This document shows positions 4,243 to 14,883 of a DNA stretch of 64,000 nt, in pieces. The position numbers and the translations under genes were made by a program. The notes under the pieces were generated by a model. That model saw only the letters and a list, made by a program, of their open reading frames with translations. It ran no database searches and was not told the DNA's origin. Within the stretch, counting starts at the first letter, position 1, and every line of letters starts with the position of its first letter. This stretch comes from Acidimicrobiia bacterium (GTDB taxonomy: Bacteria > Actinomycetota > Acidimicrobiia > Spongiisociales > ZC4RG35), in NCBI GenBank assembly GCA_028285585.1, contig JANQOU010000005.1, positions 1 through 64,000 of the forward strand, read 5' to 3'.

Positions 4243-5541
4243 TCAGCCGGGTCCTCTGGGGGATGGCTCTCTCAACGGCGACACAGTTATGGAATCGGCG
4301 TTGATATCTGGTGGTAATTGCCCGACTCTCCATCCTTCACTCGTTGTTTCGCAGTAGTAGTAGCGGCGACCTTCGTAAACGACAAAGACGCCTTCTACCT
4401 CTGTTGGCGCAGCGATGCCAAGTGCCGCATGTCCCGGTGTCAGCAGAGGCAGAACTTCGTGTCCGAGGCGACGGAGAACCGCCGCTGCCAGGATTGTCGT
4501 GTCCTCGCAGTCACCGGTTTCCTCGTGGATGGTCTCGATCGGGTAGCGCCAATACTCGGGGTGGTCGGTCGTTTCTGCGTCAAGCGTGTAGTCCATCGAT
4601 TGGGCGAAGGCGAGGACGGCAGCAGATTCTTGAAGGCTGGTGTAGCCGAGGTCATTGCTGATTCGCCGGATCGCCGAGGCGCTCTGGTCGACCTCGCCCG
4701 TGGCGCCTGCCACGATCCAGGGCGAGAAGTCAGGGAGTGTCAGGTCTGCTGGTGCGATCGGGTTCATCGACTGCATCTGGAGGAACCGCTCCGTGTCTAC
4801 TTCAACCCTGATCGAGAACCGATCGTTCACTCCTCCCCAGGTGACATCCCACTCAAAAGAGTGGGTCGCGTAGCTGCCATCTTCGAGTTCGGTGATCAGG
4901 TCAGGGACCAGCGGGAGATCGTCTAGGAGCCGTCGCGGCGTGTTCGGCGTAGCGAGCAGAATCAGGAAACTGACGGCGGCAAGTAGCATCAGAGGACGGA
5001 GTGCTGGATCGTTCCAGAACAAGATGAGCCCAGCAACGGAAGCACCCCATGTAAACCGTTCGAACCAGATCAATCCGACTCTGCTGGCGATTCGCTCGAA
5101 GAAGCGGGCAACAGCACCTTCGACGTCGCTTCTGATGATTGCCCTCAGCAACAGCGCTACGCCCACAGCCGACCCGTAGATAGCGAGTTGGAACTGGCCT
5201 TCGGACAGTTCGAGCCAGTTGGGCCAGGGGGCTAGATACCAAAAGGCCACCGCTGCTCCGGATCCGATCATCAGGAGGATCGCACGGCCAGGGGTAGGTC
5301 TCGGATCTATGGGAACTTTGGGTGCCCTCTGAAAGATCCGGGCCCAAGCGGCGAGGAGCGCCTGGACCGCACGGCCCAGCCATCCTCTGATCGAGACCAA
5401 CAGGCGCTTCAGGGCTTCGGTCGGTGGCCTGAACAGTCCGGCGACCAAAGCCGACATGTGCTGGAGAATCGACTTGACCACTCTCCAAGTCCCGAGGAAC
5501 ACCGTCTTGAGAAACTCGCGGATGGCACGAATGGCCCTCAT
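4243..5541 (-). CDS. Membrane protein with transglutaminase-like Cys-His-Glu domain
   Basis: 432 residues. An amphipathic N-terminal part of about 80 residues is followed by hydrophobic segments near 87-103, 117-135, 160-177 and 182-198, then a soluble C-terminal domain. That domain has the transglutaminase/cysteine-peptidase-like pattern GDCEDTTILAAAVLR (Cys345), TPGHAALGI (His371) and YYYCETT (Glu398). The fold can cross-link, hydrolyse or bind peptides; which one applies here is unknown. It is the last gene of a four-gene operon and its ATG overlaps the stop of the preceding gene by 4 bases (ATGA). Its partner genes encode a VWA protein, a tubulin-like protein and another membrane protein, so a role in a membrane-bound complex is inferred. 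Confidence 0.8.
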   Translation of the reverse strand: MRAIRAIREFLKTVFLGTWRVVKSILQHMSALVAGLFRPPTEALKRLLVSIRGWLGRAVQALLAAWARIFQRAPKVPIDPRPTPGRAILLMIGSGAAVAFWYLAPWPNWLELSEGQFQLAIYGSAVGVALLLRAIIRSDVEGAVARFFERIASRVGLIWFERFTWGASVAGLILFWNDPALRPLMLLAAVSFLILLATPNTPRRLLDDLPLVPDLITELEDGSYATHSFEWDVTWGGVNDRFSIRVEVDTERFLQMQSMNPIAPADLTLPDFSPWIVAGATGEVDQSASAIRRISNDLGYTSLQESAAVLAFAQSMDYTLDAETTDHPEYWRYPIETIHEETGDCEDTTILAAAVLRRLGHEVLPLLTPGHAALGIAAPTEVEGVFVVYEGRRYYYCETTSEGWRVGQLPPDINADSITVSPLREPSPRGPG

Positions 5542-7556
5542 GGCGTCGGCTCCCGATCGGGTGACAGTCGGTACAGGTGCACTGTTGCAGCGAACCCCGC
5601 GGCGTGGGTTCGTCTGGTGTCGGTGAGTTGCGGCATAACTCCTGTGGCCACGTCACCTTCTTCCGGAATCAAGAGGTTTGCTGTCCCCTCGTCCGGAGCC
5701 ACGAGGTAGTGGGCAATGGAGGCGGTGCTCCCCCCAGCCGGTGTCAGATCCGTTGCCAGGACGCCCAGGGCAGTTTCGAGAGTCTGACCTCCTTCAGCGA
5801 GCGCTTCACCGAGTGTTTCCCAGCGTGCTGCCCGCGGTTCGACAAGCTGGGAGGACCACTGTTCGACAAGCTGCCGCTTCGCAGAGAGAGTGAGGTCGCT
5901 AGAAAGGAGGTTCTCTCGTACGACAGCGATGAGCCCACGAGTCGCCGCGGCTACGTCGATGGGGCGAGTCGCCTCGAACAGCGCTGCTGTCGGCACGTCG
6001 TCGGCGGTTGGCACGTCGATGGCGAATCTGCTTGTTGTGACGGCATCGAATCTTCGTAGATCTGACCGGTCTTGGAAGGTAGAACGGGCGTGTTTTAGCA
6101 GTGCTTTCAGCCATCCAAGCCAATCAGCGACCGAGTCGGCATTAGGTGGAGGAGAGTCTTCGTAGTCGCCGTGAGCTTCGCCAACCCAGTCCCTGAGCCA
6201 GCTCAGCAGGGTGAGGTGCTCGGTGACAGCTTTCGCTTCGGTTGAGTCGACCAATTGCTGTTCCATACGTCGTGCCAGTCGGTCCCTGAGTTGGATGGTT
6301 CGACGGAGCCGGCGACGGTAGAGGCTCCACCCGATCAGGATGACTGCTGTCGAGGCAAACCCGGGCCAGCGGGAGACTGTCACATCCACCGGAATGGTTC
6401 CGGTTCCCACCGCGGCGGACAAGCCCACGAGAATCCAAAGAGCAACCATTGCCACTCGTGTGGCGACAGCAGAAGCGAACGGCAGCCATCGCAGTAGTTG
6501 GCGCAGCTTCTGTCGGTCCGTGGTGAAGTCGGCGATTGGAGAATCCAGCTGGTTGCTCTTGATGCTTGCGATTGCTCGGTCGAGGGCCGATCGCATGCCT
6601 GAGCAGTAGGCGGCTGCCTCCGAGACGTTCTTGGTCGCCTCGATCTGAGCAAGAATCTCAGTGGCTATCAGGAACCGCAGATCGCTGAACCGCTCGTCTC
6701 GTGTGTATGCAATCCGCGAGTTAATGAACGGAACTTCGTTCAGGGTGGCCAGGTCGTAGCGGGTGGTGAGCGTTTCAGACCAGGACTGGATGGGAATCGA
6801 ATCGAAGTCGATGTCAAAGAGCCGCAGTTTGGCGAGGAGTGACCCACCGGAAGGACTGTCGAGCAGCTTTTGCCATGACTCATCGTCACTCAGTTGCAGG
6901 TCGTCGATCCATTGAGTGCCCAGTTCGTAGGCAACGTCGGTTTTTGCGTTTGCAAGGAGTTCATCCAGGGCAACCATGGCCTGAGCTGCGGCATCCGCCA
7001 GCAGAAGTCGCCTAACGCTGTAGGTGATGGACGCCGCACTCCACATCCAGGCACCGCCCCTTTGTCCTATCTCTGACTCGAGTCGGCTCGAGGCCAGGGT
7101 CGCGGCTGCGTCTGCTGCGAATGCGAACTCTTCTTCAGGAGTATGGGCCACTGATTCATTGGTCGATGCCGCGGTGACTACGACCCCGCGCATTTGATCG
7201 CTCAATTCAGTGATCGCCGACATCTCGACGGCGTCCAGCGTCCGGCCGGTGAGGATGATCGCCCATTGACGAAGATCGATCCCCAGATACGCCGATCGGA
7301 TCTCGTGAGCTATAGCGCTTGTGCTGGCTGTGGCTTTTACTCGAGAGTCATCGCTGTCCACCTCAAGGAAGTGGATCAGGAGCAGGGGGTCACCCTGTCC
7401 CACATGCGCGACGATGCGCTCAACCGAAGCTATTGAGAAGCTCTCGACCGTGTCGGAATGAACGACCCCATCAAGGTCGTGGGCCAACCACTCGAAGCGC
7501 GTCGCCGCGTCCGTCGCAGCAGCGCCGTGTGTGATGGCGATCGTCGGCGTCGTCAT
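5538..7556 (-). CDS. Two-TM protein of unknown family in tubulin-like operon
   Basis: 672 residues, not recognised as any named family. An N-terminal region of about 355 residues, rich in Ala, Ser and acidic residues, is followed by two membrane spans near 362-384 and 397-413, then a basic stretch (YRRRLRRTIQLRDRLARR) and a mostly helical C-terminal part of about 250 residues. There is no signal peptide, so both large domains are probably cytoplasmic, joined by a membrane hairpin. It starts 6 bases after the tubulin-like gene and overlaps the transglutaminase-like gene by 4 bases, so it is almost certainly co-expressed with both. A plausible inference is a membrane anchor or adaptor for the tubulin-like protein. 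Confidence 0.75.
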   Translation of the reverse strand: MTTPTIAITHGAAATDAATRFEWLAHDLDGVVHSDTVESFSIASVERIVAHVGQGDPLLLIHFLEVDSDDSRVKATASTSAIAHEIRSAYLGIDLRQWAIILTGRTLDAVEMSAITELSDQMRGVVVTAASTNESVAHTPEEEFAFAADAAATLASSRLESEIGQRGGAWMWSAASITYSVRRLLLADAAAQAMVALDELLANAKTDVAYELGTQWIDDLQLSDDESWQKLLDSPSGGSLLAKLRLFDIDFDSIPIQSWSETLTTRYDLATLNEVPFINSRIAYTRDERFSDLRFLIATEILAQIEATKNVSEAAAYCSGMRSALDRAIASIKSNQLDSPIADFTTDRQKLRQLLRWLPFASAVATRVAMVALWILVGLSAAVGTGTIPVDVTVSRWPGFASTAVILIGWSLYRRRLRRTIQLRDRLARRMEQQLVDSTEAKAVTEHLTLLSWLRDWVGEAHGDYEDSPPPNADSVADWLGWLKALLKHARSTFQDRSDLRRFDAVTTSRFAIDVPTADDVPTAALFEATRPIDVAAATRGLIAVVRENLLSSDLTLSAKRQLVEQWSSQLVEPRAARWETLGEALAEGGQTLETALGVLATDLTPAGGSTASIAHYLVAPDEGTANLLIPEEGDVATGVMPQLTDTRRTHAAGFAATVHLYRLSPDREPTP

Positions 7557-7562
7557 TGTTGA

Positions 7563-10500
7563 CTAACTGAGAATGGCCTGCTGTCGAAGTTCCACCTGCC
7601 AGGATGCGAGGCCGTCGAACACATGCTCAAGCACTTCGACATCCTTCGGACGTTGAGTGTTTGCGTCGATGAGGGCTTCCAGTTTCGTCTCCATGAAGTC
7701 ATCGACCTCTTCGAGGAGTCGTTCGACCCCGAGGCAACGCTTGGCCCATTTGGCGGCGGCTTCGATGCTTGTTCGGAGTCCATGGTTATCCCCGACCGCT
7801 TCGAGCATCGAAGGCCAGCTCTCGCCTAGCGGGATGTCATCTCCGATAGCCCTAGCGCGTCCATCTCGGAAGTCCAGCTGTCTGCCCAGCCAACCACCGT
7901 CGTCGTCGACCCTCAGGTGAGCGACAACTGGGTTGGTGCGGGAGTGATCGTAAAACTCCTCGAGTCCAGTTGACTCGTCCCCGAGGAGGTCTTTGATGAT
8001 GAGCGCTTGCCCCACCAGACGTGCCACATCCTCTACCTCGAAATAGAGGGGCACCAGCGTTTCGAGTTTCTCGGCGAATCGCCGATCGATGTGTACCGGT
8101 GGATGGCTATAGGGGGCGGCCTCGCGGCGTTGCGATACCATCTCATACGCAGCTTTCCAGTTGACGACGTCGTGGAGAGCGTGCACCGGGACCGCCCACT
8201 CGACGCTAAGAGCAACGACCCTTTCAGGATCGGGGATCGGATGCAGCTTGGTATTTGGCGGCAGCGACCCCTTGATCTGATCGGCTAGTCCTTCAGGATG
8301 TGCGATCACCGTTGTAACGGTGGGGGTTCTTGCCGTCCCCGCTCGGAACCGACCCTCTTCCCAGCTCCAGCAGATCGATCGGGACAGGACTGCCAGACCC
8401 GAAAAGGCCCGGGCCAGTTGGAGGGGCTCGGTTTCAGCCGAGGGAAGATCGCTGGGAAGGCGATTTTTCCTAAGGACCCCTTCGCCGGTCTCGAGAGCGC
8501 GCCGCCGAGCCTCCTCGACCAGAGCCAGAGTGAGCGACTTCTCGGCCGCCGACTGTTCAGCAGGGTCAGAAGAACCGAGAGAGAAGAAGGCACGGTTGGC
8601 CCGGTCGTCTGCCCAACGTTTGATGAAGGTGTTCAGATCCTCACCCTGAAGGCCGCTGTAGTGTTCCTTCTTGATGTCTTCAAACAAACTCCTCGCCAAG
8701 GTTGACTCTTCGATCTCCGGCTGAGAGTCGGCCGGGATCAGCGTCGTCGTCGCTTCCGGCCCGGCGTCCTTTCCAACAAGTGTGTCGTCGGTCCAACGCG
8801 CCTTGGCATCATCCGAGATCGCGCGCAAACGGGTGACTGACCTGTCCAGTTCAAGTCGTAGCGTTCCAACGCGCTCGAACATCTCAGTAGCAAGGCTGTT
8901 ACGAGCCGCTGCGAGTTCAGCGTCATGAATAGCCCTTGCCCAGCTCTGAATCGATTGTCCGAGCAAGGTAGCAATGTCCTCTTCGGTCGAGGGCGTGCCC
9001 GTCAGGGAGGCTATCTTGGCAGCCACCTTCTCATGCAATGCTCGGTTCGAGGCCTTCTGGAGATTCTGCACCAGTTGGTTGACTCTTGCCTCCGCGCTTA
9101 CCCGCCCGGCGGTGGTCGTCTGAAGACTGGCCTCCGCCTCATACTGCATCGTGCTCAGGTGCCTCTCCAGGAGCTGCAAAATTTCACCCGCGAATAGAAC
9201 CCCGTGTCCAGAGGTGAACACAGACTCGACAACTCGCTGGTCGAACTCTGCTGCCAGACGTCGATGCTGTTCTTCAGTCGACTTGCGAATCGACCGGACT
9301 ACCGACGGTGCCGACCTTTTGATCGACCCGATCAGCTTCTGCGCGGTCTGAACGTCGGCGGTTCGCTCCATCTCCGCCATCCCTTGTTCGGCGTAGTCCA
9401 GGAAATCGAGAACTTCGTCGTCGAACTCGACGCTTTGAGTTTCGATTCCAACAGATGTGGCAGCGTCGATAAGCCTATGTGTGAGTTCATGACTTCTCGC
9501 GATTCCTCGTAGATCTTCGGCATGCTCGAGAAGACCCTGGTTCACATACCAGTCGATATACCGGTGAGTCAGGTGCCGCCGGTAGGTGTCGCCGGGAAAC
9601 ACGACCCTGGCCACACCGAGACTGCAATACCGCCGCGATCTCCGAAAGTCATCCTCCTCCCCCAAAGCACGATCGGTGTTTGTGGAATCTACGCCCACCA
9701 TGGGCATCCCGATGTCGGTCACAAGGAAGTGGTAGATGGCCTCGGCGGTGATCTCGTAGAGGTCGTTGATCCGAGTGAGCTCACCGATTCCTCGCATCGT
9801 GGATCCGACCAGGTAGATTTGCTTGAGAAGGTCTCTGTCGGGGATGTCCGGTCCGCCCGACTCGGCGGATCTGCCGAGGTAGGTGCCTAGCGTTGACCCG
9901 TGGCGAGTGAAGTGGTCGACTTCCCTGAAGTAGGCATAGGCATTGGAATCGTGGGCGACGGCTAGATCTCCACTCCCGACTGTCCTATTGATTGCAGCTC
10001 TAAACGTGCTCGGAAGATACGTGAAGGCGCGAATTTCGGGGTAGTAGCCGCGACCACGAGCCGCAGCCCATGCCGCTAGAACAACGGTAAGGAATCCGGA
10101 ACTGCCGGTCCCGCCGGTCGAACTGTTGACGATGTAGACCGGGATTGTGGGTACGCCTGGGCTCTCACCCCCGCTGCCGAGTGCGCCGTCGATTTTCACC
10201 GCCTCAGTGATTGACGTTTCAATTCGGCGTACCAACTCATCGGAGCCGCGGTGAAACGCCAGTCTGCCGAGCATTCTCTCGCGTTTCAGGCCTTCGGTGA
10301 TCGGTCCCATGGGGACTCGGTAGGCGGGGTCCCACCATTCGTTGAGGAACTGGTTGTGAGGAAGTTGGCCTTGAAGGTACCGGTTGGCATCGAAAGGAAC
10401 CTCTACCAAGTTGAAGAACTCTCCGACTCCAAGTCCAACCCCCTGTGGCAGCGGTGGGTTCTGGTCACCAAGATCGACTGCGTCGATGCCGAGGAACTTG

Positions 10501-10700
10501 ATGGAGTCGATGGCCGCTTGATCGGGTCGTTGGCCACGAAGGGCGGCTCTGACTCGCGAGATCGTCTGGATACCCGATCCGCCGATTCCGATGACGACAG
10601 CGGCCGAAATCGGTGTGAGGTCGTCACCTCCACCCACGCCTCGAACCGTTTGGTCGAGGCCCAGGTAGCCCAAGGCGCTTGCCGGCTTTGCGTAAGTCAT
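7563..10700 (-). CDS. Tubulin/FtsZ-like GTPase-fold protein (Tubulin_2 type)
   Basis: 1045 residues, far longer than FtsZ. The N-terminal third has tubulin-superfamily nucleotide loops: VVIGIGGSG (residues 35-43, T1-like), GIDAVDLGD (71-79, T2-like) and NSSTGGTGSSGF (192-203, the T4 tubulin signature). The rest is a long, largely helical region with charged heptad-like stretches (about 400-650) and a further C-terminal domain of unknown type. Large tubulin-like proteins of this kind have been described next to VWA-domain proteins and proposed as parts of a membrane-remodelling system; no enzymatic role is established. It overlaps the VWA gene by 4 bases and lies 6 bases before the two-TM gene. 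GTP binding and polymerisation are predictions. Confidence 0.85.
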   Translation of the reverse strand: MTYAKPASALGYLGLDQTVRGVGGGDDLTPISAAVVIGIGGSGIQTISRVRAALRGQRPDQAAIDSIKFLGIDAVDLGDQNPPLPQGVGLGVGEFFNLVEVPFDANRYLQGQLPHNQFLNEWWDPAYRVPMGPITEGLKRERMLGRLAFHRGSDELVRRIETSITEAVKIDGALGSGGESPGVPTIPVYIVNSSTGGTGSSGFLTVVLAAWAAARGRGYYPEIRAFTYLPSTFRAAINRTVGSGDLAVAHDSNAYAYFREVDHFTRHGSTLGTYLGRSAESGGPDIPDRDLLKQIYLVGSTMRGIGELTRINDLYEITAEAIYHFLVTDIGMPMVGVDSTNTDRALGEEDDFRRSRRYCSLGVARVVFPGDTYRRHLTHRYIDWYVNQGLLEHAEDLRGIARSHELTHRLIDAATSVGIETQSVEFDDEVLDFLDYAEQGMAEMERTADVQTAQKLIGSIKRSAPSVVRSIRKSTEEQHRRLAAEFDQRVVESVFTSGHGVLFAGEILQLLERHLSTMQYEAEASLQTTTAGRVSAEARVNQLVQNLQKASNRALHEKVAAKIASLTGTPSTEEDIATLLGQSIQSWARAIHDAELAAARNSLATEMFERVGTLRLELDRSVTRLRAISDDAKARWTDDTLVGKDAGPEATTTLIPADSQPEIEESTLARSLFEDIKKEHYSGLQGEDLNTFIKRWADDRANRAFFSLGSSDPAEQSAAEKSLTLALVEEARRRALETGEGVLRKNRLPSDLPSAETEPLQLARAFSGLAVLSRSICWSWEEGRFRAGTARTPTVTTVIAHPEGLADQIKGSLPPNTKLHPIPDPERVVALSVEWAVPVHALHDVVNWKAAYEMVSQRREAAPYSHPPVHIDRRFAEKLETLVPLYFEVEDVARLVGQALIIKDLLGDESTGLEEFYDHSRTNPVVAHLRVDDDGGWLGRQLDFRDGRARAIGDDIPLGESWPSMLEAVGDNHGLRTSIEAAAKWAKRCLGVERLLEEVDDFMETKLEALIDANTQRPKDVEVLEHVFDGLASWQVELRQQAILS

Positions 10701-12292
10701 CGTGGTTCTCCCGTTGATTTGGTGGGTCTCTTTGTCCGTGAACTTGGTTTGGTCAGATACTTCATCCGAGCGTTGCCTAGCCGGTACCGGCCGAATCGGA
10801 TCTCTGCGCTGTCATGTATCTGGCGTTCCCTGAACTTGCTGGCGACCTCGTAGAAAGGTGGTTGTTCAACCGATGCCCAAACATGTCCTGGGTAGCCTCG
10901 CTTGGTGAACAGCCTGAGTCTTGCGTTGCCCGCTAGAGGGATGTTCGTCCCGTCGAGGACCATCCTCTTCCTTCGAAGCTTGATCACCCGTGAATCCTGG
11001 TCGAGGCCGGCTTCTTCGAGTTCAAAGACGCCGACGAGGGATGGGAGCCGCATGAAACGACGATAAAGCCAGATGAGGATCAGAAGTGTCAAGAGTCCTG
11101 CTCCTGCGACGATTGCCGCCTGTGTCACAGTCCATCCGAAGGTTCTCCGGGTCTCCACGAAGCCGGCACCGGTAACTTTCGCACCAAGCGGATGGGCCGT
11201 GACTCTTCCCAGGAGCAACCTGGGCTCGACGGTGTAGTGGGCGTCGATTTCGATGGTGAACTCTTCGGCTTCGGTTGTTGGCGGGATTGTGAAGTGCGGA
11301 GACTGGATCTCGGGTTGGAGCAGGACCGGTATTTCCACACTTCCAGTCGGAGGGATAGAGACGGTGGACTCGCCGATAAGTCGAATGGATACGGGAGTCC
11401 CGTCGCTACCGCGGGCGACTACTCCGTCGATCTCGACGGCTATCGGGAGCTTGTTGAACTCCGAAGTGAGAGTCACTGTGGTCTCGATTGCAGAGGTCAG
11501 GTCGGCAGCGGTGGTCGATCGGAGTCGGACGCCACCGCGATCTAGCTCGTTGTCAACCCGGAATCTGAGCCTTGCCAAACGCGACTGACGAACGGCGTCT
11601 TCAAAGAAGTCCGAGAGCTGGCCTGGGGGCAGACTGATGATCTCTGGGTTCGAGAACACAGACCTGAGGAGTTCAATGTCCGTGCCTTCAACGAGGCCGA
11701 TGCCAAGGACTGTCAAATCGTGTGTTTGCTCAACACGCGTAGCGCGATCACGAAGATTCTCCCAAGACTCACCCGTTTTCTCGGAGTAACCGGAACCGTC
11801 TGGAGGGTCGTGCAAGCCGTCAGTGATAAAGACGACCGTTTGCACGTCGCTGGAGTCGGCCCGTTCGAGTCTCCGTAGAGTCGCATCTATGGCAGAGCCG
11901 ATGTCTGTATGGGTGCCATCCGCGATTTCTGGAGTTGCGCTCCTGGCTGCCGTTCGAGAGTCGAGCTGAAGCGTTCCTTGAAACACAATGTTGGGGTCGG
12001 AGTCGAAGGTCACCACCGACACGAAATCGCCGGCAGGAATCGAGTCGACGAGGACTCCGAAAGAGTCGACTACGGCCGGATAGAGCGGATTGTCGCCTTG
12101 GGACATGCTCCCCGACGTATCGATCACGATGACAAAGTCGGCGGGGAAGTCGCCAACATCGAACAGGTCGAAGAGTTCGTCGAGCGTCTGAGGCTCATGC
12201 TCGGTTGCTGCCGCAGCTGTCGGGGGTAACCCCGCGGCAAACGCGATCGCAGCGATACCGCTTAGCGCCGCGAGCCGCTTCAAACTGCGCAC
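10697..12292 (-). CDS. Exported, membrane-anchored VWA-domain protein
   Basis: 531 residues. A signal peptide (residues 1-28, ending TAAAA) is followed by a von Willebrand A domain with a complete MIDAS: DTSGSMS near 58-64, the TDIGSA Thr and the FITDG Asp. The middle part looks like beta-rich extracellular domains. One membrane span (AAIVAGAGLLTLLILIWLY, about 390-412) is followed by a basic cytoplasmic tail of about 115 residues. The protein therefore joins an outside metal-dependent binding domain to the cytoplasm, where the tubulin-like protein acts. GTG start behind GGAGGG. First gene of the operon; its stop overlaps the next start by 4 bases. Confidence 0.88.
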   Translation of the reverse strand: MRSLKRLAALSGIAAIAFAAGLPPTAAAATEHEPQTLDELFDLFDVGDFPADFVIVIDTSGSMSQGDNPLYPAVVDSFGVLVDSIPAGDFVSVVTFDSDPNIVFQGTLQLDSRTAARSATPEIADGTHTDIGSAIDATLRRLERADSSDVQTVVFITDGLHDPPDGSGYSEKTGESWENLRDRATRVEQTHDLTVLGIGLVEGTDIELLRSVFSNPEIISLPPGQLSDFFEDAVRQSRLARLRFRVDNELDRGGVRLRSTTAADLTSAIETTVTLTSEFNKLPIAVEIDGVVARGSDGTPVSIRLIGESTVSIPPTGSVEIPVLLQPEIQSPHFTIPPTTEAEEFTIEIDAHYTVEPRLLLGRVTAHPLGAKVTGAGFVETRRTFGWTVTQAAIVAGAGLLTLLILIWLYRRFMRLPSLVGVFELEEAGLDQDSRVIKLRRKRMVLDGTNIPLAGNARLRLFTKRGYPGHVWASVEQPPFYEVASKFRERQIHDSAEIRFGRYRLGNARMKYLTKPSSRTKRPTKSTGEPR

Positions 12293-12428: not shown

Positions 12429-13481
12429 CTAGCTTGCCGGAACAAGTCGCATGGCATCGGCTACGAGTTGGGTCCCGTACGGCGATGTCGAACGGTCGCT
12501 TAAGTGGACCATCACCTTGTCTCCGGGGTTCAGTCGCAGCGTCCTAAGTGTTACCCATTTCGCCGCGTAGTTTTCTTGAGTGACGGTCACGGTTCTCTGA
12601 TACTTGCCATTGAGGTACACCTTGTACTTTGCATGGGCATAACCCCACTTGTGCGGGATGTAGACCTGGAGTCTGGTTTGGCCCCCCTTGCCGGAACCAA
12701 CTCGGAACTCCCAGCGAAAGTAGTTGGTGTCCTTCGAGCGAGTGTTCTGTATGGTGTATGTGGTCCACGAGTCCCTGCCCCATCCGTCATACCAAGCTCC
12801 AGATCTGCGGTCGATGTACTTGGAAGGCCCGTAGCGCCTTGGCTCGTCGATGGTTACCTTGACGGGCCTCAGGGCTGGAGCTGACGGCGAAGACTTGAGG
12901 TCTTTGACGTGGATGAACTTGTTCGGCCAGCCTCGTTGACCCGGTCGCACGGTGCGCTGACGGAATCCGTTGTGAAGGTCGTAGTTCATCTCTGAGATGA
13001 CGATCGAGCCGTCGTTGTTGAGTTTCTCCACATATGCAACATGGTTTGGATACCAAGCGACCGACCCAAGTCCTGGCGTGTTGTTCACCGCGATCCTGGC
13101 TCGATTGGCGGCCGCTACCCACTTCGACGCATTGCTCCATCGGTGGCCCGAGGGCTGTCTATAGGTGTTGTTGAAAGGAATCTGGTTTCGGTCGTTCAGA
13201 CGAAACGCCACCCAACTTGTGCACTGTCCCTGGTAGAAGGCCCACTTATCCGGTACGCAACCGCCAGGTCCGTATTCGTTGCAGTCGGGAGCGTTGGGAT
13301 GAGGATACGCCGTCGCATGAGCCACGGCGGAGGGCTCGTCGCCTACGACTGGGGCTGTAAGGAGCATGCCAGTGAACAACCCCGTCATGACCAGGACGAT
13401 CATCCCTCTGCGCGCGAGGGATGTGTTCCACCAGGTGCTAGCCGGTTGGGGGCGGGTATGTGTTTTCTGTATTGTACTCAC
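12429..13481 (-). CDS. Secreted CHAP-domain protein with golvesin-type C-terminal domain
   Basis: 350 residues from GTG 13481, which has an AGAGGAGAG ribosome site seven bases upstream; the frame runs on to 13676 but that part crosses the divergent gene. A signal sequence (residues 25-54) precedes a CHAP amidase/peptidase domain with Cys87 (GQCTSW), His147 (YPNHVAYVE) and Glu164/Asn166 (SEMNY). The C-terminal 130 residues fit the golvesin C-terminal-like domain: W-YDGWG, YIPHKWGYAHAKYKV, WVTLRTLRLNPGDKV and a final VADAMRLV. CHAP enzymes cut peptidoglycan stem peptides or cross-bridges. It is on the same strand and 136 bases upstream of the VWA operon; co-regulation is possible but not shown. 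Confidence 0.85.
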   Translation of the reverse strand: MSTIQKTHTRPQPASTWWNTSLARRGMIVLVMTGLFTGMLLTAPVVGDEPSAVAHATAYPHPNAPDCNEYGPGGCVPDKWAFYQGQCTSWVAFRLNDRNQIPFNNTYRQPSGHRWSNASKWVAAANRARIAVNNTPGLGSVAWYPNHVAYVEKLNNDGSIVISEMNYDLHNGFRQRTVRPGQRGWPNKFIHVKDLKSSPSAPALRPVKVTIDEPRRYGPSKYIDRRSGAWYDGWGRDSWTTYTIQNTRSKDTNYFRWEFRVGSGKGGQTRLQVYIPHKWGYAHAKYKVYLNGKYQRTVTVTQENYAAKWVTLRTLRLNPGDKVMVHLSDRSTSPYGTQLVADAMRLVPAS

Positions 13482-13560
13482 TCTGCTCTCCTCTCTTGAT
13501 TGACGAGTTCGTACCGTGTGAGTATCCATGCCTGCCTGCGGCCACCGAAAGGACGTAAGG

Positions 13561-14883
13561 GTGCCGGAAACGCGACGAAAGGGTGACACTCCTCCGATAG
13601 AGGAGATGACGTCGGCACTCGAAGCATTCGCGAGAACGACCATCGGTTCCCTGGCTATCGCCGAGGTCGTCGACAAGCTGGCACCACTTCTTTCGCTTGA
13701 CTGCGTTCGAGTGCGGGCCGTTGACTCCAGCGATGAAGCTCGCTATCTGGCTCTCGACGACCTGCTAGACGACCTGCTCCAAACAATGAGCCGGTCGGAG
13801 AAACGAACCGCTTTGCGCGACTTGTACGGGTTTGCGGTTTATGACCGACCTCTGACCTCACCAGAAAGGCGGATCGACGGCATTGAGGCTCGCGGGGCGC
13901 GGGCAGCGGAGACGCTCGGATACGCAGGCTGGCGTTCGCTCCAGCGCAGAACAGAACCCAAACTTCATACGATGGTTGCTCGCCTGCTGTACGCCGTGCC
14001 GCCGTCGATCCAAGAGCCTGACCTAGAGGGCGTATTGAGACTCAAAGATGATATCAACGATGCCTTCGAGGGTTTTGCGGTCTTTCACGATTTGCTCCGA
14101 GACGAGCCATTCCTCGTGGACAAGGGGAGGTTCGAACCAGACGATCCCGACGAAAATCTGCGATCCACCATTGTTCGACTTCGAGATGAGCTCGCCCACA
14201 ACGAGGCAATCGCCTTCATAGGCCAGGTACCGGGAATCAATCGGAAGAGGCCAATACTGGAAGTCAGAAGCGCCGACTACGCAACACTGCGAGCCCTTGG
14301 CATCGCCAGTGCAGCGAGTGGTGATAGGGCGATAGACATATATGCTCTCGGGGCGTACAGCGTTGGCATTGACACGATCAGAGATGACGTGCTGTTGGTC
14401 AGGCGAAAGGCCGGTGTGAACCACTGGTCGGGTGCGATTGCCACCCCTGGCGGTCTGGTTGGTCGGGTAGGGGACGGTATGCCCCATGCTTACGACGAGG
14501 GTGTGGGATCAACGATCCGTCGCGAACTGGTGGAAGAACTCGGCCCGTTTAGGAGCTGGCGAGAACCCGTTGCATACGCATTCACTGAGGATTCGAAGGT
14601 GGGGCGACTACAGGTCGTAGGCATCGGGGCTGTGGGAGAGCACGATGAAGACGAGCCGACAGACCTACTGGAGTCCAGCGTCGAGAGGGTTCTTGTCGCG
14701 GATCTCCCTGAGCGACTCCTAGAAGGTGAGCAATGGATACCTGCAACTCGTATGCATGTTCTGATTTGGCTTCTGGCCGGTGCTCCCGGTGTGGAGTCAG
14801 ATCGACTCACCTACAACCCTCAATTGGCTGCCGAGTCGATTGTGCAGCACATTGGCGATCTTCGTGACCATCGCTGTCTGTAG
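13561..14883 (+). CDS. NUDIX hydrolase with large N-terminal domain of unknown function
   Basis: 440 residues from GTG 13561, which has AAAGGA seven bases upstream; ATG 13528 in the same frame has no ribosome site. The first 275 residues match no family I recognise. The last part is a NUDIX fold: ATPGGLVG, then the NUDIX box ending STIRRELVEELG, with the metal-binding Glu residues near 322-326. NUDIX enzymes hydrolyse nucleoside diphosphate-linked compounds. Such long two-domain NUDIX proteins occur among signal-sensing or defence-linked genes, but the substrate here is unknown. It is divergent from the CHAP gene (80-base gap) and followed after 114 bases by a small gene on the same strand. 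Confidence 0.75.
   Translation: MPETRRKGDTPPIEEMTSALEAFARTTIGSLAIAEVVDKLAPLLSLDCVRVRAVDSSDEARYLALDDLLDDLLQTMSRSEKRTALRDLYGFAVYDRPLTSPERRIDGIEARGARAAETLGYAGWRSLQRRTEPKLHTMVARLLYAVPPSIQEPDLEGVLRLKDDINDAFEGFAVFHDLLRDEPFLVDKGRFEPDDPDENLRSTIVRLRDELAHNEAIAFIGQVPGINRKRPILEVRSADYATLRALGIASAASGDRAIDIYALGAYSVGIDTIRDDVLLVRRKAGVNHWSGAIATPGGLVGRVGDGMPHAYDEGVGSTIRRELVEELGPFRSWREPVAYAFTEDSKVGRLQVVGIGAVGEHDEDEPTDLLESSVERVLVADLPERLLEGEQWIPATRMHVLIWLLAGAPGVESDRLTYNPQLAAESIVQHIGDLRDHRCL

Follow-up and report, generated by a model that had tools for sequence, protein, structure and literature searches.

A likely variant of the FtsZl1/VWA system with a putative membrane-anchored, degenerate tubulin paralogue

How could a cytoplasmic FtsZ-like protein work with proteins on the outside? 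Jekely asked this as a reviewer of the 2010 study in which Makarova and Koonin described operons of FtsZl1 with vWA proteins (PMC2875224), and such operons have been known since that year without a mechanism. An operon in an Acidimicrobiia bacterium is analysed here. It lies in the window, by which we mean the whole 64,000-nucleotide stretch of DNA that was analysed, and consists of four minus-strand genes running from position 12292 down to 4243, with junctions of −4, +6 and −4 bases. The products are, in order, a VWA protein, a Tubulin_2 protein, a two-TM protein and a transglutaminase-like protein. ORF coordinates match exactly the four-gene layout of overlaps and gap described for the locus in the initial annotation (Table 1).

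Table 1. Coordinates of the operon and its features in the window
Feature	Position	Strand	Basis
VWA protein, 531 aa	10697..12292	-	Pfam VWA_2 1.6e-14; hydropathy and charge
MIDAS metal site D58-T-S-G-S62	12107..12121	-	alignment of six VWA proteins
TM of VWA protein, residues ~385-407	11072-11140	-	hydropathy and charge
4-base overlap, first and second genes	10697-10700		
Tubulin_2 / FtsZ-like-1 protein, 1045 aa, long C-terminal extension	7563..10700	-	PF13809; alignments; tree
T1-type loop GIGGSG, residues 38-43	10572..10589	-	invariant glycines, alignments of 6 and 8 sequences
T4 nucleotide loop SSTGGTGSSG, residues 193-202	10095..10124	-	GGTG invariant, alignments of 6 and 8 sequences
6-base gap, second and third genes	7557-7562		
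Two-TM protein, 672 aa	5538..7556	-	homology to relatives' third protein, residues 172-435
TM hairpin, residues ~362-414	6315..6473	-	hydropathy and charge; aligns with relatives' hairpin
4-base overlap, third and fourth genes	5538-5541		
LapG/transglutaminase-like membrane protein, 432 aa	4243..5541	-	NCBIfam LapG; PDB LapG; relatives 3.6e-29, 1.1e-20
Catalytic Cys345 of GDCED (Ser in L045, Ala in L049)	4507..4509	-	alignments
Catalytic His371 (Lys in L045, Trp in L049)	4429..4431	-	alignments
Glu398 of YYYCETT, third triad residue	4348..4350	-	alignments

The second gene connects the operon to the earlier work. PF13809 matches residues 35-381 of its product with an E-value of 1.8e-31 (110.1 bits against a curated cut-off of 27), and this is the FtsZl1 family of Makarova and Koonin (PMC2875224), which supports the link that the initial annotation drew to their study. 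The T4 loop pairs with the GGGTGTG of FtsZ in hhalign, in a comparison that aligned the T3/T4 region alone; placement of the T7 catalytic loop by this route failed for that reason. A conserved TN[IT]D motif (residues 340-343) precedes an SSLG strand and is similar to the T7 loop of FtsZ; it is an unproven candidate for that loop, profile alignment giving no support. The T6-H7 elements, which filaments require, could not be identified in FtsZl1 in the study of Makarova and Koonin (PMC2875224). A PDB search with the tubulin profile gave no real match. The genome has this one Tubulin_2 gene and an ordinary FtsZ elsewhere. The 1045-aa protein would be a soluble, GTP-binding member of the tubulin superfamily that probably self-assembles. 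The original proposal for FtsZl1 was a tubulin-type filament that remodels membranes or forms vesicles. Such a role would suit the shared PF13809 family and VWA neighbour (PMC2875224) and the three membrane proteins of the operon, but the sequences carry no evidence on remodelling as such and the FtsZ comparison reached only the T3/T4 region; we regard this explanation as very unlikely.

Relatives of the operon are few, and every one is a metagenome-assembled genome (MAG). A Tubulin_2 gene is present in 10 of the 138 genomes of the window's order, the window's own counted. The proteins of the other nine belong to a distant type, with 17-20% identity in the ones that were aligned, and most of their operons consist of a VWA gene, the tubulin gene, a gene for a several-TM protein of ~900-1070 aa and sometimes one for a small membrane protein. 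Among 395 genomes of the class the window tubulin has no close relative besides itself, and none was found in phage and plasmid collections or in IMG/VR. A sample of the phylum supplied the true relatives, which are MAGs belonging to two families of a different class; a scan of genome contigs returned the same organisms. Their proteins match those of the window with E-values of 1e-54 to 1e-59 (tubulin), 1e-15 to 1e-37 (VWA) and 1e-20 to 1e-29 (last protein). The initial annotation had staked its reading on the four genes being neighbours in related genomes, and the full set recurs in the same order in two complete copies, L045 (G540) and L049 (G728), with five further partial copies that are cut by contig ends (L043, L044, L046, L061 and G681 pieces). 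Since this order recurs across two classes of one phylum, it exceeds chance. Maximum-likelihood analysis puts the window tubulin in the clade of the four-gene relatives with 100/99 support, and the Tubulin_2 proteins of its own family fall on the opposite side of the tree; long branches were flagged in this tree, and the gene-order match agrees with the placement. Horizontal transfer is likely.

Several observations concern the extent and surroundings of the operon. One locus, L051 (positions 7318-12138), has the VWA and tubulin genes without the other two; its VWA protein is the closest to that of the window (31%), and it may represent a two-gene minimal form. Just upstream of the operon, at 12429-13676, is a gene for a secreted protein with CHAP and Golvesin_C domains. 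Because a divergent NUDIX gene overlaps the first start of this ORF, the real start is probably further in. The CHAP gene was rejected as a fifth member, being separated by a 136-base gap and absent upstream in the relatives. Beside the other end of the operon, at the contig start (2-3880), are a Cas6 fragment, an RT-Cas1 fusion of 628 aa, Cas2 and a CRISPR array with ~15 copies of the 37-base repeat GTCACTGACAAGGAGCTCGAAGCGAGAGCATTGAAAC. Elsewhere, in two genomes of family f71 (L055:7512-11141 and L054:415-4089), the gene for a P-loop protein is next to a pair of neighbouring ORFs of ~500-573 aa with a weak likeness to Tubulin_2, possibly another tubulin pair.

The third gene yields the principal result, which is new: a degenerate domain of the tubulin superfamily, set on a membrane hairpin, makes up the N-terminal half of the two-TM protein in the relatives. 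The product had been described as a two-TM protein of no known family. The two TMs stand; the absence of a family does not, because profiles and a model identify the protein in the relatives as a membrane-anchored, degenerate tubulin paralogue. The N-terminal domain of the relatives begins TPTVLIGLGEFG..., resembling the QPTLVIGLGGTG... of the neighbouring tubulin, and finishes FGLSSLVYPAE..., resembling its SSLGLSRILFPR.... A first profile test of this domain against that tubulin gave hhalign scores of 31.9 (local) and 30.0 (global), where 100 column-shuffles reached at most 26.9 and 20.3. With the L051 tubulin added to the profile the scores rose to 72.2 and 68.2, against maxima of 21.1 and 19.3 in 40 column-shuffles, and the whole domain was aligned with a probability of 96.7% and an E-value of 4e-10; hhalign E-values here come from single comparisons, which is why shuffled controls were used. 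Consistent with this, an HMM of the two-TM family run against ~270 proteins found mostly tubulins as its best matches outside the family, that of L051 at 1.9e-5, and Pfam Tubulin_2 matches the two-TM proteins of L043 (E 5.7e-4, under cut-off) and G681 (E 7.2e-8).

Structural comparison agrees. The N-domain of L060 was modelled with AF2 from an alignment free of tubulins, and the model is of low confidence (pLDDT 51, pTM 0.53). For this model Foldseek placed TubZ first (E 2.6e-4), and 49 of the 50 leading rows were tubulin or FtsZ; VIA-align returned FtsZ or tubulin in all 50 rows, the best being FtsZ with a Z of 11.8 over 153 residues at 3.4 A. The GGxGxG of the T4 loop is replaced in the relatives by GDSQEL, GRSEDV or ADREDP, and this exchange of GGTGSG for acidic sequence suggests a non-canonical tubulin that is probably nucleotide-free.

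The window copy belongs to this family through residues 172-435. Over that region, TM hairpin included, it aligns with the third protein of the relatives at an hhalign score of 46.5 (shuffled mean 17.5, maximum 22.8); a Pfam scan of the 672-aa protein gave no match. Basic residues flank the hairpin on both sides, from which both ends are predicted to be cytosolic. The N-domain of the window copy is shorter than that of the relatives, has lost the GLG loop and has no T4 loop, and residues 1-250, taken by themselves, have diverged too far to be recognised: no likeness to tubulins or to the domain of the relatives is detectable (score 15.6; shuffled 14.8). The tubulin identity is thus held by the family and extended by inference to the window copy. 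An AF2 model of the whole window protein was unusable (pLDDT 36). We also considered the ~1000-aa third proteins of the operons in the order as degenerate tubulins and dropped the idea, as there was no signal (16.3 against 14.2 when shuffled).

Hydropathy and charge support, as a predicted topology, the proposal that the VWA protein faces outside and has a cytoplasmic tail. They predict a signal peptide, an extracytoplasmic VWA domain at residues 52-217 and a cytosolic tail of ~120 aa. The MIDAS is complete (D58-T-S-G-S62, T129 and D158) and invariant in the family, as judged from six aligned VWA proteins. In three of the four-gene relatives, Pfam FHA matches the tail at the same place with E-values of 0.02, 0.055 and 0.24 and bit scores of 15.8, 14.3 and 12.3, below the cut-off of 20.7; Pfam found no FHA in the tail of the window protein or in that of L051.

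We propose, with a probability of roughly 0.45, that the four products form a switch or scaffold that is built on tubulin and bound to the membrane, with the two-TM protein as a docking, nucleating or capping subunit. The VWA protein would bind a metal-dependent ligand outside and reach into the cytoplasm with its FHA-like tail, and the two-TM protein would most likely dock, nucleate or cap the GTP-binding tubulin at the membrane, beside the VWA protein. The LapG/papain-like protein, with its four TMs, would be an accessory: a potential protease in the window genome, whose catalytic residues are missing from both complete relatives. The direction of the signal and the output of the system are, like assembly and docking, parts of the scheme that we infer. 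Because L051 has no two-TM gene, docking by this protein would not be universal. The stricter form of the proposal, a membrane-integral tubulin pair in which a transmembrane, nucleotide-free paralogue lies below an extracellular VWA receptor and acts as nucleator or cap for the GTP-binding tubulin, is tentative and, in our estimate, somewhat unlikely. It would be unusual for a degenerate tubulin paralogue to persist as a transmembrane protein, and a membrane-anchored partner of tubulin fold in the operon would provide a concrete link between the cytoplasmic FtsZl1 and its outside-facing partners.

The fourth protein had been read as a Cys-His-Glu transglutaminase-like effector that cross-links or cuts. 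It has four predicted TMs followed by a papain-like domain that, from the charge pattern, is predicted to be cytosolic, and the triad is intact in the window. By its matches the domain is LapG/papain-like: NCBIfam LapG gives 4.4e-6 (26.1 bits against a cut-off of 320), Pfam C93 11.9 bits against a cut-off of 27, and Pfam Transglut_core a sub-threshold 0.0083, and a PDB sequence search returned LapG structures at 8e-4 and 0.01. The likeness to the periplasmic cysteine protease LapG (PDB 4u65, 4fgo) consists of the GDCED motif and local sequence over ~50 residues; the protein differs in its four TMs, its predicted cytosolic domain, scores far below the family cut-off and an active site that relatives do not retain. 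The Cys and the His are gone from both complete relatives, so catalysis is not general; the resemblance is kept and the chemistry gone, and the subunit therefore need not act by cutting in the L045 and L049 genomes. Of the effector claim the triad survives in the window, the cross-linker gives way to a LapG-like protein and is further weakened by this loss, and cutting as a general function falls. The loss also argues against a simple protease as effector for this variant.

Protease-like neighbours of another kind occur elsewhere in the order and class: trypsin-like proteins, membrane-anchored or fused to the TM protein, are encoded beside VWA/Tubulin_2 genes. A membrane-anchored one holds a comparable place in distant Tubulin_2 operons (L016:16406-17368, L018:15981-17042, L019:12431-13354); one adjoins the VWA gene (L048:7307-8290) and one is fused to the third protein (L052:4087-7338). 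With a LapG-like protein here and trypsin-like proteins there, protease-like membrane partners are recurrent and mutually non-homologous. Control of envelope surface proteins is a second explanation, in which a Lap-like device for regulated proteolysis or secretion uses the LapG-like domain to cut or hold a surface protein, and the tubulin and VWA proteins position or gate it. The closeness of the fourth protein to LapG, the intact Cys345, His371 and Glu398 in the window and the membrane-linked trypsin/HtrA-like proteases of other Tubulin_2 operons fit it. We find it distinctly unlikely: known LapG is periplasmic, whereas the domain here is predicted to be cytoplasmic, and both complete relatives are without the catalytic Cys and His.

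A third explanation is a conflict system, anti-phage or self-limiting, of the GTPase/tubulin/vWA type proposed by Kaur, Burroughs and Aravind in 2020 (PMC7159879), in which the VWA protein would sense a disturbance outside or in the membrane, the tubulin assemble and the membrane protease be released as effector. Tubulin and membrane VWA protein belong to the GAP1-N2 tubulin theme (PMC7159879), the operon adjoins Cas6, RT-Cas1, Cas2 and a CRISPR locus, its spread in the order is patchy, the tree parts the window from its own family, and the distant operons have their trypsin-like proteases. However, DO-GTPase2, the defining GTPase, was found in none of the eight genomes with the system (a positive control, Corynebacterium glutamicum, was found). 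The operon is therefore distinct from the GTPase-centred conflict system as published, and membership in GAP1-N2 was dropped. PADLOC matched none of the four proteins except for a coiled coil at 0.017, the neighbours in L049 resemble biosynthetic genes rather than a defence island, as judged from first residues and motifs, and the complete relatives lack the catalytic residues. We consider a conflict system unlikely.

The switch or scaffold that we prefer can be set beside the known systems. The GAP1-N2 GTPase-centric tubulin systems (PMC7159879) share with it a tubulin with a helical extension and a membrane-bound vWA protein; here DO-GTPase2 is absent, Pfam finds no FNIII in the window VWA protein (a diverged beta domain could escape Pfam), and a LapG-like protein is present instead. 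In Firmicutes, GAP1-N2 versions have two tubulin-domain genes, described as coiled-coil-fused (PMC7159879), the nearest parallel to a tubulin pair. Sulfolobus FtsZl1 SSO1376 (PMC2875224) is likewise a tubulin-superfamily protein with TM helices, but its TMs are N-terminal and its GTP motifs kept, whereas in the two-TM family the hairpin follows the domain and the T4 loop is lost. With the FtsZl1/vWA operons the locus shares a large protein that is FtsZ-like at its N terminus and has a long C-terminal extension, an adjacent VWA protein with a signal peptide, and further membrane proteins; it differs in a third gene of a membrane-anchored, degenerate-tubulin family and a fourth that is LapG-like. 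The main text of PMC2875224 mentions neither proteases nor a tubulin-type partner. We conclude that the operon is likely a new variant of the FtsZl1/VWA system in which, on the function we infer, a membrane-anchored pseudo-tubulin would serve as the docking subunit.
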